Assembly (NCBI RefSeq): GCF_009193175.1
Contig: NZ_VUKE01000005.1
Location: forward strand, 62,001-126,000
Direction of reading: 5' to 3'
Length of the DNA: 64,000 nucleotides
Origin: Georgenia ruanii
GTDB lineage: Bacteria; Actinomycetota; Actinomycetes; Actinomycetales; Actinomycetaceae
Shown here: positions 10,668 through 63,345 of the stretch, in pieces
How the letters are laid out: each line of letters opens with the position of its first letter
Numbering within the stretch: the stretch's first letter is position 1
Program-made: the position numbers and the translations under genes
The notes under the pieces: generated by a model
The model's input: the letters and a program-made list of their open reading frames with translations, nothing else
Database searches by the model: none
What the model was told of the DNA's origin: nothing

Positions 10668-10751
10668 TAGCCTTGGACCATGACGGCCGCGGTGCTCCTT
10701 ACGCAGCCGCGCTGACACCAGCGGGCGCCCTCGGCGCCGCGCCAGCGCGGC
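10668..10751 (+). promoter_or_regulatory. leuS attenuator leader with leaderless start
   Basis: TAGCCT (10668-10673) plus six bases places the transcript start at the ATG of an 11-residue leader peptide (10680). Its two adjacent Leu codons end at 10700. Five bases later begins a perfect 9-bp stem (10706-10714 with 10743-10751) that swallows the leader stop codon. A ribosome stalled on the Leu codons would cover the left arm. The U-tailed hairpin at 10755-10774 follows. This is a ribosome-mediated attenuator by design; the exact switch between structures is not resolved. No T-box consensus is present. Confidence 0.65.
10680..10715 (+). CDS. leuS leader peptide (MTAAVLLTQPR)
   Basis: Eleven codons starting with ATG at the predicted transcript start and ending TGA. 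Residues 6-7 are Leu-Leu (CTC CTT). Tandem codons for the amino acid whose tRNA the downstream enzyme charges are the hallmark of attenuation peptides. The CTT codon is rare in such GC-rich DNA, which would sharpen sensing of leucyl-tRNA. Confidence 0.6.
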   Translation: MTAAVLLTQPR

Positions 10752-10754
10752 TCA

Positions 10755-10774
10755 CCTCCCTGTCGGGAGGTTTT
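10755..10774 (+). terminator. Intrinsic terminator in the leuS leader
   Basis: CCTCCC (10755-10760), loop TGTC, GGGAGG (10765-10770), then TTTT. This is a textbook intrinsic terminator, placed 44 bases before the leuS ATG and after the leader peptide, so it must be read through for leuS to be expressed. Confidence 0.75.
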
Positions 10775-10818
10775 CTCATGTCCGGAGCCCCGAGCATCAC
10801 TGAGCAGGAAGAGCAGCC

Positions 10819-13758
10819 ATGAGCACGCACGACGACGCCACGACCACCGAAGAGCGCGTCCCCGCCGAGGAGACCGGCTACCGCTACACGGCGGCCCTGG
10901 CGAACGAGATCGAGCGGGCCTGGCAGGACCGCTGGGAGGAGCGCGGCACCTTCTGGGCCGACAACCCCACCGGCGACCTCGCCACCGGCGCCCCGGTCCC
11001 CACCGAGAAGTTCTACCTGCTCGACATGTTCCCCTACCCCTCCGGCAAGGGGCTGCACGTCGGCCACCCGCTGGGGTACATCGCCACCGACGTCGTCGGC
11101 CGCTACCAGCGGATGAAGGGCAAGAACGTCCTGCACGCCCTCGGTTACGACGCCTTCGGCCTGCCGGCCGAGCAGTACGCCGTCCAGACCGGCCAGCACC
11201 CTCGGATCACCACCGAGGAGAACATCGCCAACATGCGCTCCCAGCTGCGCCGGCTGGGCCTGGCGCACGACTCGCGCCGCACCTTTGCCACCACGGACCC
11301 GGAGTTCGTGAAGTGGACCCAGTGGATCTTCCTGCAGATCTTCAACTCCTTCTACGACGCCGACGCCGAGCGCCCCGACGGCGGCCTCGGCCGCGCGCGC
11401 CCCATCGCCGAGCTGGAGGCCGAGCTGGCCGCCGGCACCCGGCCCACCCCCGACGGGCGGGCCTGGGCCGAGCTGAGCGCCGACGAGCGGCGCCAGGTCC
11501 TCGACGACCAGCGCCTGGCGTACATCTCCGAGGCGCCCGTGAACTGGTGCCCGGGCCTGGGCACCGTGCTGGCCAACGAGGAGGTCACCTCCGAGGGCCG
11601 GTCCGAGCGCGGGAACTTCCCGGTCTTCAAGCGGAACCTGCGCCAGTGGATGCTGCGCATCACCGCCTACGCCGACCGCCTGGTCGACGACCTCGACACC
11701 ATCGACTGGCCCGAGAAGGTCCGCTCGATGCAGCGCAACTGGATCGGCCGGTCCACCGGCGCGCACGTCGACTTCGCCGTCGCCGGCGCAACCGAGCCGC
11801 TGACCGTCTTCACCACCCGGCCGGACACGCTCTTCGGCGCCACGTTCATGGTGGTCTCCCCGGAGCACCCGCTGCTCGCCGACGGCGTCCCGGCCGCCTG
11901 GCCGGAGGGCACCAAGGCGGCGTGGACCGGCGGGGCGGCCGCCCCGGCCGAGGCGGTGCGCGCGTACCAGGCGGCCGCGGCGGCGAAGACCGACGCCGAG
12001 CGCCAGGACGAGGGCCGCACCAAGACCGGCGTGTTCACGGGTCTGTTCGCCACCAACCCGGTCAACGGCGGTGCCGTCCCGGTGTTCACCGCCGACTACG
12101 TCCTCATGGGCTACGGCACCGGCGCGATCATGGCCGTGCCGGCCGAGGACGAGCGCGACTACGAGTTCGCCCAGGTCTACGACCTGCCCGTCATCCGCAC
12201 CGTCCAGCCCCCGGAGGGCTTCGAGGGCGGGGCGTTCACCGGCGAGGGCCCGACCATCAACTCCGCCAACGAGGAGATCTCCCTCGACGGCATGGGCATG
12301 GACGAGGCCAAGGCCACCATCACCGCCTGGCTCGAGCGGAAGGGCGTCGGACGCGGCGCGACCACCTACCGGCTGCGCGACTGGCTGTTCTCCCGCCAGC
12401 GCTACTGGGGCGAGCCGTTCCCGGTGGTCTACGACGAGCAGGGCCGCGTCCACGCGCTGCCGGCGTCCATGCTGCCGGTGGACCTGCCCGAGGTGCCCGA
12501 CTACTCCCCGCGCACCTTCGACGCCGACGACGCCGAGTCCTCCCCGGAGCCGCCGCTGGGGCGGGTGCCCGAGTGGGTCGAGGTGCAGCTGGACCTCGGC
12601 GACGGGGTCAAGACCTACCACCGCGACACCAACACCATGCCGAACTGGGCGGGCTCGTCCTGGTACGAGCTGCGCTACCTCGACCCCCACAACGACGCCG
12701 CGCCGGTCGACCCGGCGAACGAGCGGTACTGGATGGGCCCGCGCCCGGCGACGACGCTGCCCGACGGCACCGCGGCGCCCGCGAACGTCTCCGGCGGCGC
12801 GGACCTGTACGTCGGCGGCGTCGAGCACGCCGTCCTGCACCTGCTCTACGCCCGCTTCTGGCACAAGGTGCTCCACGACCTGGGGTACATCTCCAGCTCC
12901 GAGCCGTTCCACAAGCTCTTCAACCAGGGCTACATCCAGGCGTACGCCTTCGCCGACGCCCGCGGGCAGTACGTGCCGGCGGAGGAGGTCGTGGAGGGGC
13001 CGGCGGGGGCCGATGGTGAGCCGACCTACACCTGGCAGGGCCAGGAGGTCTTCCGCGAGTACGGGAAGATGGGCAAGTCGCTGAAGAACATCGTCACCCC
13101 CGACGACATGTACGCGACGTACGGCGCCGACACCTTCCGGGTCTACGAGATGTCGATGGGGCCGCTGGACGTCTCCCGGCCCTGGGACACCCGCGCCGTC
13201 GTCGGCTCCCAGCGGTTCCTCCAGCGGCTGTGGCGCAACGTCGTCGACGAGCACACGGGGGAGACGACGGCGGTGGACGCGCCCGCCGACCTCGAGACCC
13301 GCAAGCTCGTCGCCCGCACGGTGGCCGAGGTGGAGACCGAGATGTCGGCGATGCGGGTCAACACCGCCATCGCCCGCATGATCGTGCTGAACAACCACCT
13401 CACGGCGCTGGCGCAGGTGCCGCGCGAGGCCGTCGAGCCGCTCGTGCTCATGGTCGCGCCGGTCGCCCCGCACATCGCCGAGGAGCTGTGGTCCCGCCTC
13501 GGGCACCGCGAGTCCCTGGCCAAGGAGCCGTTCCCGACGGCGGACCCGGCCCTGCTCGTCGAGGACACCGTCACCTGCGTGGTCCAGGTGGCCGGCAAGG
13601 TGCGCGACCGCCTCGAGGTGCCCGCCTCCATCGGCGAGGACGACCTCAAGGCCCTGGCCCTGGGCTCCGCCGCCGTCAAGCGCAGCCTGGGCGACAAGGC
13701 GGTGCGCACGGTGATCGTGCGGGCGCCCAAGCTGGTCAACATCGTCCCGGCGAAGTAG
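10819..13758 (+). CDS. leuS: Leucyl-tRNA synthetase
   Basis: 979 residues, in the range of long actinobacterial LeuRS. The HIGH-type motif HVGH is at residues 80-83 and the KMSKS-type loop KMGKS at 750-754. Between them lies the editing domain with the conserved [19 protein letters not shown] and later [21 protein letters not shown]. The enzyme attaches leucine to tRNA-Leu and hydrolyses mischarged products. A C-terminal anticodon-binding domain with [13 protein letters not shown] ends the protein. GGAAGAG lies seven bases before the ATG. Expression is probably controlled by the leader described upstream, and a long hairpin ends the unit. Confidence 0.98.
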
Positions 13759-61290: not shown

Positions 61291-61308
61291 GGCCCGGGGG
61301 AGTCCCCG

Positions 61309-61357
61309 ACGGCGGTGGTCACGTCGCCCGCAGGGGGAGCGACGTGCCCACCGCCGT
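61309..61357 (+). repeat. Long hairpin carrying the second 20-bp repeat
   Basis: Outer stem 10 bp (61309-61318 with 61348-61357), then an 8-bp stem (61320-61327 with 61339-61346) around an 11-base loop. The direct repeat copy at 61325-61344 forms the top. Could be a terminator, small RNA or protein site; nothing decides. Confidence 0.65.
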
Positions 61358-61421
61358 TGTGTCTCCGGCGCCGGGTTGGGACGCCGTCGTCCCCGGATGC
61401 TGAGACGGGCCGGACCGGAAC

Positions 61422-61450
61422 GTGACGCGACCCGCCTCGCGCGCTAACCT
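61422..61450 (+). promoter_or_regulatory. leuA promoter
   Basis: GTGACG (-35, 61422-61427), 17 bases, TAACCT (-10, 61445-61450). Seven bases later is the GTG of a leader peptide, so the leader transcript is leaderless. Confidence 0.7.
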
Positions 61451-61457
61451 CACAGAC

Positions 61458-61520
61458 GTGCGCAGGGCTCGCCCCGAGCAGCACCAGCTGCTCCTTCCGT
61501 GCCGCGACGAGGCCTCCTGA
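61458..61520 (+). CDS. leuA leader peptide (20 residues with Leu-Leu-Leu)
   Basis: MRRARPEQHQLLLPCRDEAS, with codons CTG CTC CTT at 61488-61496. Tandem leucine codons before the first enzyme of leucine synthesis are the hallmark of attenuation; leuA leader peptides of this kind are known in actinobacteria. A hairpin (61476-61482 with 61487-61493) can form over these codons in free RNA. Confidence 0.8.
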   Translation: MRRARPEQHQLLLPCRDEAS

Positions 61521-61550
61521 GGCCGGCTCCTCGTCGCGGCGGTTGTTGTG
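61501..61550 (+). terminator. leuA attenuator hairpin
   Basis: A perfect 12-bp stem (61501-61512 with 61529-61540) encloses the leader stop codon; a T-rich GGTTGTTGTG follows. Only four bases separate the last Leu codon from its left arm, so a ribosome stalled for leucyl-tRNA would block the stem. Confidence 0.75.
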
Positions 61551-61587
61551 CCTGGCCACCCGCACAGACGACGAGGAACCCATCACG

Positions 61588-63345
61588 ATGAAGACGCAAG
61601 GCCACATCTACGCACAGCAGCCCTCCGGCATGCCGGTGACGAAGTACCGCCCGTTCCACGAGGTCAACCCGGTCCACCTGCCCGACCGGCAGTGGCCCGC
61701 CCGCCGCACCACGCACGCCCCCCGGTGGCTGTCCACCGACCTGCGCGACGGCAACCAGGCGCTCATCGAGCCGATGAACGCCGAGCGCAAGCGCGCGATG
61801 TTCGACCTCCTGGTGAAGATGGGCTACAAGGAGATCGAGATCGGCTTCCCGGCCGCCTCCCAGACGGACTTCGACTTCGTGCGCTCGCTCGTCGAGGACG
61901 ACGCCGTCCCCGAGGACGTCACCGTCTCCGTGCTCACCCAGTCCCGCCCCGAGCTCATCCACCGCACCATCGACTCGCTCGTCGGCTTCCCGCGGGCCAC
62001 CGTGCACCTGTACAACGCCACCGCGCCGGTCTTCCGCGAGATCGTCTTCCGCAACGACCGCGAGGCCACCAAGGAGCTGGCCGTCGCGGGCACCCGCGAG
62101 GTCATGGCCTACGCAGAGAAGGTCCTCGGCGACGACACCGTCTTCGGGTACCAGTACTCCCCGGAGATCTTCGTCGACACCGAGATCGAGTACGCCCTCG
62201 AGGTCTCCGAGGCGGTCATCGCCACCTGGCAGCCCGACGGCGACCGTGAGCTCATCCTCAACCTGCCCGCCACCGTGGAGCGGGCCACGCCCAACGTCTA
62301 CGCCGACCAGATCGAGTGGATGTGCCGGCACCTGTCGCGCCGGGACGCCGTCGCGGTGTCCCTGCACCCGCACAACGACCGCGGCACCGGCGTCGCCGCC
62401 GCCGAGCTGGGCCTGCTCGCGGGCGCCGACCGGGTGGAGGGCTGCCTGTTCGGCCAGGGCGAGCGCACCGGCAACGTCGACCTCGTCACCCTGGGCCTGA
62501 ACCTGTTCAGCCAGGGCATCGACCCGATGATCGACTTCTCCGACATCGACGAGGTGCGCCGCACCGTCGAGCAGTGCACGCAGATGGACGTCCACCCGCG
62601 CCACCCCTACGGCGGCGACCTCGTCTACACCTCCTTCTCCGGCTCCCACCAGGACGCCATCAAGAAGGGCTTCACGGTGCGCGAGGAGAAGGTGGTCGCC
62701 GCGGGCGGCGAGGAGACCGCCGTCGTCTGGGAGCTGCCCTACCTCCCGATCGACCCCAAGGACGTCGGGCGCAGCTACGAGGCCGTGGTCCGGGTGAACT
62801 CCCAGTCCGGCAAGGGCGGGGTCGCCTACCTGCTGTCCTCCACCCGCCACCTGGACCTGCCGCGCCGGCTGCAGATCGAGCTGTCCGGCATCGTCCAGAA
62901 GCACACCGACGCCTACGGCGGCGAGATCGACGCCGAGCAGCTGTGGTCGATCTTCGCCGACGAGTACCTCCCGCACACCGCCGCCATGGGTCTGAAGCCC
63001 TGGGGCCGCTTCGCGCTCAAGGGCACCACGGTGACCACGGCCGGCGAGGGCACCGACGCGGTGCTCACCGTCACCCTGGTCGACGGCGGAGAGGAGAAGG
63101 TCGTCGCCGCCACCGGCAACGGCCCGATCGACGCCTTCGTCAACGCCCTGACCGAGGTCGGGGTGGACGTGCACGTGCTCGACTACGCCGAGCACGCCCT
63201 GTCCGAGGGCGGGGACGCCACCGCCGCCGCCTACCTCGAGTGCGAGGTGGACGGCCAGGTGCTGTGGGGGGTGGGCATCGACCCGTCCACGATGACCGCC
63301 TCGTTCAAGGCGATCGTCTCCGCAGTCAACCGCGCCGAGCGCTGA
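61588..63345 (+). CDS. leuA: 2-isopropylmalate synthase
   Basis: 585 residues, the long actinobacterial form. The HMGL-like barrel starts at [15 protein letters not shown] and carries metal ligands in [29 protein letters not shown] is diagnostic. The C-terminal regulatory LeuA dimer domain (about 460-585) binds leucine for feedback inhibition. The enzyme joins acetyl-CoA to 2-ketoisovalerate, the first step to leucine. GAGGAA lies nine bases before the ATG; the frame is open to 61543. Expression is probably attenuated by the leader upstream. Confidence 0.98.

Follow-up and report, generated by a model that had tools for sequence, protein, structure and literature searches.

The LEU element of leuA in Georgenia ruanii as a probable ribosome-read leucine sensor, with related modules before other branched-chain amino acid genes

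A LEU element, consisting of an open reading frame (ORF) with a run of Leu codons and a pseudoknot, was described before leuA in most Actinobacteria, and attenuators were described before leuS in Streptomyces (Seliverstov 2005, PMC1262725). In the available text of that paper, sensing by the codons was judged unlikely and a protein-binding site was preferred; mutations in the S. coelicolor leuA leader (Craster 1999, as cited there) had some effect that was inconsistent with classical attenuation, and according to its conclusion mutations of the Leu codons were without influence on leuA regulation, which counts against codon sensing. The leaders of leuA and leuS in S. lividans, LeuL1 and LeuL2, were found to be leaderless by RNA-seq, according to the part of the article consulted (Droste 2021, PMC8079986). 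Leaderless poly-Cys attenuators of mycobacteria have also been reported (Canestrari 2020, as cited in the portion of PMC13236596 available), and the leuA leaders of C. glutamicum and C. diphtheriae were already published, as far as the sources at hand go.

The window analysed here comprises 64,000 nucleotides of Georgenia ruanii (contig NZ_VUKE01000005.1, positions 62,001 to 126,000, forward strand) with a GC content of 75%. Its leuA leader has the same Leu-run ORF, pseudoknot and position before leuA as the LEU element in the text of PMC1262725 and is a member of that known element; the leaderless design that it shares with the leuS leader is already published for a relative. As described for LeuL1 and LeuL2 in the consulted part of PMC8079986, both leaders of the window carry Leu runs, with a hairpin followed by uridines at leuS and no typical terminator at leuA; however, the S. 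lividans start sites came from RNA-seq whereas those of the window were deduced from the sequence, and the peptides differ in sequence and length. The mycobacterial attenuators, as presented in the available portion of PMC13236596, likewise place a leaderless amino acid sensor ORF before an operon, with cysteine instead. The text consulted of PMC1262725, figures apart, contains none of the terms leaderless, leuB, leuC, ilvE and "rare codon", and the part of PMC8079986 consulted names no pseudoknot, leuB or leuC. No leuB or leuC element appeared among the literature matches listed, which covered few subscription papers and are weak evidence of absence. New in this work are the ending of the sensor in a rare CUU codon at the leuA and leuS leaders, the members of the module at leuB, leuC and bacterial-type leuA, the box spacing, and the competition between the right arm of the P1 stem and the Shine-Dalgarno (SD) region.

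Anatomy and conservation of the leuA leader

All features described for the window lie on the forward strand. A weak -35-like hexamer, GTGACG (61422..61427), is read 17 nt 5' of a -10 box, TAACCT (61445..61450), which is separated by 7 nt from a GTG start codon at 61458. This codon opens a putative leaderless ORF of 20 codons plus stop (61458..61520; stop codon at 61518-61520) encoding VRRARPEQHQLLLPCRDEAS, in which the sensor codons CTG CTC CTT occupy 61488..61496. Five nucleotides 3' of the Leu run begins the left arm of P1, CCGCGACGAGG (61502..61512), whose partner, CCTCGTCGCGG (61529..61539), was delimited by folding, conservation and covariation. The stop codon of the leader sits in the P1 loop, and so does the 5' strand of the pseudoknot, GGCCGG (61521..61526), which was assigned together with its 3' strand, CTGGCC (61552..61557), by pairing search and covariation; in the window all 6 bp can form, one of them G-U, the best pairing having been searched for. 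The SD region of leuA, CGACGAGGA (61569..61577), is complementary over 9 bp to 61528-61536, a segment of the P1 right arm together with the nucleotide on its 5' side. The leader stands directly before leuA, which encodes a 2-isopropylmalate synthase of 585 aa (61588..63345; TIGR00970, 797 bits) whose nearest named proteins, from Georgenia, Oceanitalea and "Actinomycetales bacterium JB111", are 80-81% identical.

A scan with the sigma-70 consensus found no promoter at the leuA or leuS leader, the -35 hexamers being weak, and the leaderless start is thus deduced here from box spacing and conservation. The P1 stem alone was matched in folding by 4 of 200 shuffled sequences; the whole leader, with 24 of 200 shuffles as good, was not clearly better folded than they were. 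Searches of the window revealed no intrinsic terminator in 61300-61700, so that the intrinsic terminator which in a trp-type attenuator lies between leader and gene is missing at leuA. Rfam 15 gave no match at its gathering score anywhere in the window, and 61400-61650 had no match even at E up to 1; no tRNA gene was found in the window.

LeuA scored above the TIGR00970 cut-off in 134 of 148 genomes of the class, and upstream DNA was read in 111 of them, representing 68 genera and 33 families; counts by genome treat related genomes as separate. A Leu-run micro-ORF was present in all 111 upstream regions, with runs of three codons in 78, four in 32 and two in 1. Since our ORF picker favours starts with a TAnnnT box, which biases its figure of 97/111, the boxes were counted by their distance from the Leu run instead: 89 boxes, in 88 of the 111 loci, lay 20-29 nt 5' of the run, as against 16 in the next bin and at most 6 in every other. 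In the set of 80 named loci, all 79 with upstream sequence (L225, which had none, was dropped) showed a Leu-run ORF behind a TAnnnT box, 77 of them as picked automatically. P1 began 5-6 nt past the run in 106 of the 111 leaders (72 of the 79 named ones), and its pairing was complete (11/11 bp) in 100 leaders and 10/11 in the other 11.

Covariation was analysed in an alignment of one genome per genus (66 of the 68 genera; loops longer than 24 nt left out). P1 was paired in 99.0% of cells, with two-sided changes in 7 of its 11 pairs, and the pseudoknot in 79.8%, with two-sided changes in 4 of 5 pairs, while control structures slid by 1-3 columns were paired in 40-63%. Each pseudoknot strand also matched its own partner better than a swapped one (z 3.9 when G-U pairs are counted and 7.0 when they are not; 104 of the 111 loci, loops longer than 24 nt left out). 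A covariance model of the element matched 93 of 98 genomes of the class at E 0.1 and 77 of 89 genomes of the order at E 0.01, training rows being among them in both cases; 12 of the 89, including 2 of 7 from the family of the window, gave no match at E 0.01. The window leader scored 3.5e-11, having itself been in the model. In one family (f17: L075, L083, L088, L094, L099 and L103) the UAG stop codon of the leader falls inside the P1 left arm, and changes on the opposite arm keep P1 paired. On a contig labelled Tissierella (L230), a leuA of actinobacterial type (64% identity) has a leader of its own, MRTFILLLDCRDEVQ; this contig is mislabelled, contaminated or transferred.

The leuS leader and the shared front end

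The second leader of the window has a -10 box, TAGCCT (10668..10673), 6 nt before an ATG codon at 10680, from which a putative leaderless ORF encodes the peptide MTAAVLLTQPR (10680..10715) with the sensor codons CTC CTT at 10695..10700. The left arm of its P1, GCCGCGCTGA (equal to GCCGCGCTG(A); 10706..10715), contains the stop codon, and the right arm, CAGCGCGGC (10743..10751), was likewise placed by folding and conservation. An intrinsic terminator with the stem ACCTCCC-TGTC-GGGAGGT and a T-rich tail (10754..10776) was detected by a terminator tool ahead of leuS, which encodes a leucyl-tRNA synthetase of 979 aa (10819..13758; TIGR00396, 877 bits). Two weak sub-threshold Rfam matches at leuS were judged to be due to chance.

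Matches to leuS were obtained in 108 genomes (L181 was dropped for want of one), and leaderless-looking Leu leaders with a box gap of 6-8 nt were present at 26 of the 70 upstream regions examined. Their peptides ended in PR in 22 of 26 cases, GCCG lay exactly 5 nt after the Leu run in all of them (25 recognised by script, one by eye), and at least 5 T residues within 8 nt after the best post-stem hairpin were found in 22. The leuS leader thus joins a leader peptide with regulatory codons to a T-tract terminator, as in the Streptomyces leuS attenuator described in the available text of PMC1262725. An antiterminator favoured by a stalled ribosome, as in a classical attenuator, did not emerge from nested folding of the 26 leaders; in this equilibrium folding, which included neither kinetics nor pseudoknots, the probability of the terminator was at least 0.78 in every ribosome state of each leader. 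A third leaderless-looking leader was seen before ilvB of the same genome (L202, contig C15), where a TATCGT box stands 7 nt before an ATG codon; its peptide, MQFRVDVLRRRAAAR, contains the rare codons GTA, GTA and CTT and is followed by a hairpin and TTTTTT, a terminator recognised by eye.

The initial annotation had proposed that both leaders carry a TAnCCT box with a start codon 6-7 nt behind it, tandem Leu codons in the peptide and, 4-5 nt later, a stem that includes or surrounds the stop codon. All of this was found at leuA and at leuS, the stop lying in the P1 loop at the former and inside the left arm at the latter. Its further proposal of one shared design held for the front end, the spacing and the position of the stem (111 leuA leaders; 26 of 70 at leuS) but not for the output, a terminator being present at leuS and absent from leuA; moreover, the leuA covariance model gave no match to the leuS leader of the window at E up to 0.1, and at leuS it matched a single genome (G030), weakly (E 0.087). 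That annotation had not included the pseudoknot of leuA, the terminator of leuS or the CTT codon that ends the run.

In a genome so rich in GC, the likeness of the two leaders might be fortuitous, and the bare motif CTCCTTN{5,6}CCGCG was indeed not enriched genome-wide (28 matches against 33 for the reversed control). A strict scan of both strands of the window (TAnnnT box, gap 6-8, 8-30 aa, LL pair) nevertheless returned exactly two micro-ORFs, both before leucine genes (leuA and leuS), where 60 first-order Markov windows contained on average 0.13, none with the stem; with looser limits (gap 5-9, 4-60 aa) four ORFs appeared, three of them with LL. No locus outside the window qualified with promoter box, start codon and frame among the 20 checked of 26 that bore the motif, and the leaders are conserved upstream of leuA and leuS in the numbers given above. 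Chance likeness is rejected by the simulated windows, and we regard it as very improbable.

Sensor codons and the module before other genes

The final Leu codon of the sensor was CTT in 95 of the 111 leuA leaders and in 21 of the 26 leuS leaders, as against 30 of the 1242 Leu codons (2.4%) in 31 leuA coding sequences. This preference fades upstream in the run, the fourth codon from the end being CTG in 26 of 32 leuA leaders.

Second matches of the leuA covariance model led to further members. The first 20 regions comprised 12 leuB, 1 leuC, 1 fungal-type leuA paralogue, 3 bacterial-type leuA and 3 that were unexplained or due to chance (L303, L310 and L311); the next 20 comprised 3 leuC (L382, L384 and L385), 14 leuA by likeness (L383, L386-L391, L394-L398, L400 and L401) and 3 without a leader (L392, L393 and L399). 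A second match in the G. ruanii genome itself (C30, E 0.0097) had no leader and was judged to be due to chance, and strict rules found no leader with Ile, Leu or Val codons at the leuB and leuC genes of that genome. In all, the module was located before leuB in 16 genomes of 7 families, 4 of these genomes being added by scanning 70 leuB upstream regions (leuB was named by HMM for L294, L295 and L302 and by tblastn elsewhere), and before leuC in 4 genomes of one family, three by sequence likeness only. The claim for leuB rests on the matches of the covariance model; the strict-rule scan, which is weak evidence by itself, found 6 of 70 upstream regions against 2 of 70 antisense and 1 of 350 shuffled, and because it omitted most loci already found by the model, 6 of 70 understates the share. 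The suggestion that two copies in the window pointed to a leucine regulon is supported in that a broader regulon is present, with members before leuB, leuC and, in three genomes, bacterial-type leuA.

The leuB elements kept P1 and its spacing (scored as 5 nt in 14 of the 16 and as 4 and 6 nt in the remaining two) behind the sensor triplets LIL, VIL, FVL, VLI, LVV, LVI, VVI or RIL. Their pseudoknot strands, although widely divergent in sequence, fit their own partners (z 5.3 when G-U pairs are counted and 4.1 when they are not; 16 loci). The sensor codons of these 16 loci were GTA (10), CTT (9), ATC (8), CTC (7), ATT (5), CGC (3), GTC (3), TTC (2) and GTG (1), while the 16 leuB coding sequences obtained from 30 loci submitted used GTA for 14 of 604 Val, ATT for 7 of 193 Ile and CTT for 12 of 532 Leu codons. 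Six of the eight leuB loci with downstream frames listed had ilvE 3' of leuB, one of them named by HMM. As the ilvE product works on each of the three branched-chain amino acids, a sensor of Ile, Val and Leu fits a leuB-ilvE operon.

Three loci (L307, L308 and L309, the last by sequence likeness only) carry a LEU element 5' of a bacterial-type leuA, and in these genomes the best TIGR00970 match fell far below the cut-off, as if the control region had outlived the replacement of the gene. With the exception of L302, the leuB loci that carry the module (15 of 16) have a conserved SD-led small ORF between module and leuB, ending like ALQEAMDRRDNGGETGH, with EWGPA...DDN in one family; it was also seen at L332, L361, L364, L366 and L368. 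Its motif occurred in 9 of the 70 leuB upstream regions, some without the module, and the four examples compared with Pfam had no match. At L303 a P1-like element follows a leader with CTT CTA whose frame runs past P1; a ROK-family gene and then leuB come next.

The protein-binding site preferred in the text available of PMC1262725, on the grounds of phylogenetic co-occurrence and earlier mutants, would leave the Leu codons with little part in sensing, and the strong conservation of P1 and the pseudoknot would suit it. However, the sensor codons differ by gene (Ile, Val and Leu at leuB; Leu at leuC and leuA) while P1 stays, and rare synonymous codons are favoured at the sensor positions; we therefore consider this explanation unlikely.

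The Leu run might instead have been kept mainly because CUCCUU is an anti-SD sequence able to pair with the leuA SD, as in the base stem modelled in 2005. CTCCTT was the commonest last pair of Leu codons (60 of 111 leaders), and the run matched the SD better than swapped partners did (z 3.5 in 110 loci and 3.1 at one per genus, control windows reaching 1.6; L097 was dropped for lack of a usable leuA start). On the other hand, z was 1.9 at one per family, the genus and family samples being single random draws; leuB elements carry CTCATCCTT, TTCGTACTT, GTACTCATT and similar runs; three Actinomyces leaders carry CTGCTGCTT; and the final CTT is kept at leuS in spite of the T-rich terminator that 22 of the 26 leaders have there. 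In the window, the base stem amounts to a run of 5 with G-U. We give this explanation little credence. The change of sensor codons with the downstream gene, together with the rare-codon bias, favours sensing of codons over both the protein-binding site and the pairing of the Leu run with the SD, and codon sensing at the LEU element is likely on these sequence comparisons.

Access to the SD and the proposed mechanism

The P1 right arm matched the SD window of its own locus better than swapped partners did (z 4.6 in 110 leaders; three control windows, -1.4 to 0.3), and the left arm did not (z -0.5). The value for the right arm fell to 2.7 at one per genus and 1.5 at one per family (n=33). Four more of the 110 loci, with leaders over 150 nt away, were dropped from folding constrained by an assumed ribosome footprint. 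In this folding, the unpaired value of the SD was highest, at 0.35, for a ribosome on the first sensor codon; it was 0.29 for the last sensor codon, 0.26 for the stop codon and 0.23 for the mRNA free of ribosomes, and a ribosome placed at the 5' end also raised it, to 0.29. Among 106 leaders, the first sensor codon gave better access to the SD than the stop codon in 80 (p 5e-6; 24 of 33 per family, p 0.017) and better access than the 5'-end control in 67 (p 9e-5). The last Leu codon and the stop codon were not distinguishable (62 of 106, p 0.23), and a footprint on the former sequesters the SD in the window. The initial annotation had also suggested that a ribosome stalled by shortage of leucyl-tRNA might block the stem directly. 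On this footprint model, a ribosome with its A site on the last Leu codon should cover about half of the P1 left arm, but one on the first of three codons should not.

We propose that 61445-61590, the LEU element of leuA, probably acts at the 5' end of a leaderless mRNA as a leucine sensor read by the ribosome. Translation would begin directly on the GTG codon at or near the 5' end of the leuA mRNA, and the dwell of ribosomes on CUG CUC CUU, with the rare codon last, would report charged tRNA-Leu. As P1 and the pseudoknot start 5 nt past the sensor, the position of the ribosome would decide whether they form. A ribosome held on the early Leu codons would let P1 form and leave the leuA SD free, while one that had run on to the stop codon would cover the P1 left arm and free the right arm to bind the SD. 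Two pairings would compete for the SD, a stronger one with the P1 right arm and a weaker one with the Leu run. P1 lies at what we take to be the distance of a frameshift stimulator, and a programmed frameshift was considered as well.

Access to the SD is the likelier of two candidate outputs at leuA, and we put it forward tentatively. It cannot be the whole output, given how much the distance from element to start codon varies: the leader ends more than 120 nt before leuA in 13 of 110 loci, and at leuB the end of the sensor lies 95-375 nt before the next conserved SD-led ORF. The same variable and sometimes long distances would suit the other candidate, in which codon sensing leads to premature termination of transcription, by Rho or pausing, between the leader and leuA instead of SD occlusion; the leuS and ilvB leaders of the same genome are moreover followed by terminator hairpins. 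Against it, the search found no intrinsic terminator at leuA, and the covariation of the right arm was specific to the SD window. Termination is possible, but we hold it rather unlikely as the output at leuA. At leuS, a front end similar to that of leuA would act on the intrinsic terminator.

Beyond leuA, we lean slightly towards a regulon of branched-chain amino acid genes in which a single leaderless sensor cassette serves as the module and is re-targeted by swapping three codons. Its pseudoknot would be nearly fixed (P1 about CCGCGRCGRGG) and would lie 5 nt past an exchangeable triplet in which rare codons (CUU, GUA, AUU) abound; this triplet would be Leu-Leu-Leu at leuA, leuC and bacterial-type leuA, and mixtures of Ile, Val and Leu at leuB-ilvE; the fixed spacing would bring the pseudoknot to the ribosome during decoding of the sensor. 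The working of the LEU element was left open in 2005; the gene-dependent sensor codons, together with the bias towards rare codons, speak for its being read by the ribosome, and the extension of the module with other sensor codons is the part that deserves follow-up. Leaderless leaders may be a common front end for the control of amino acids in actinobacteria, amino acid producers among them.
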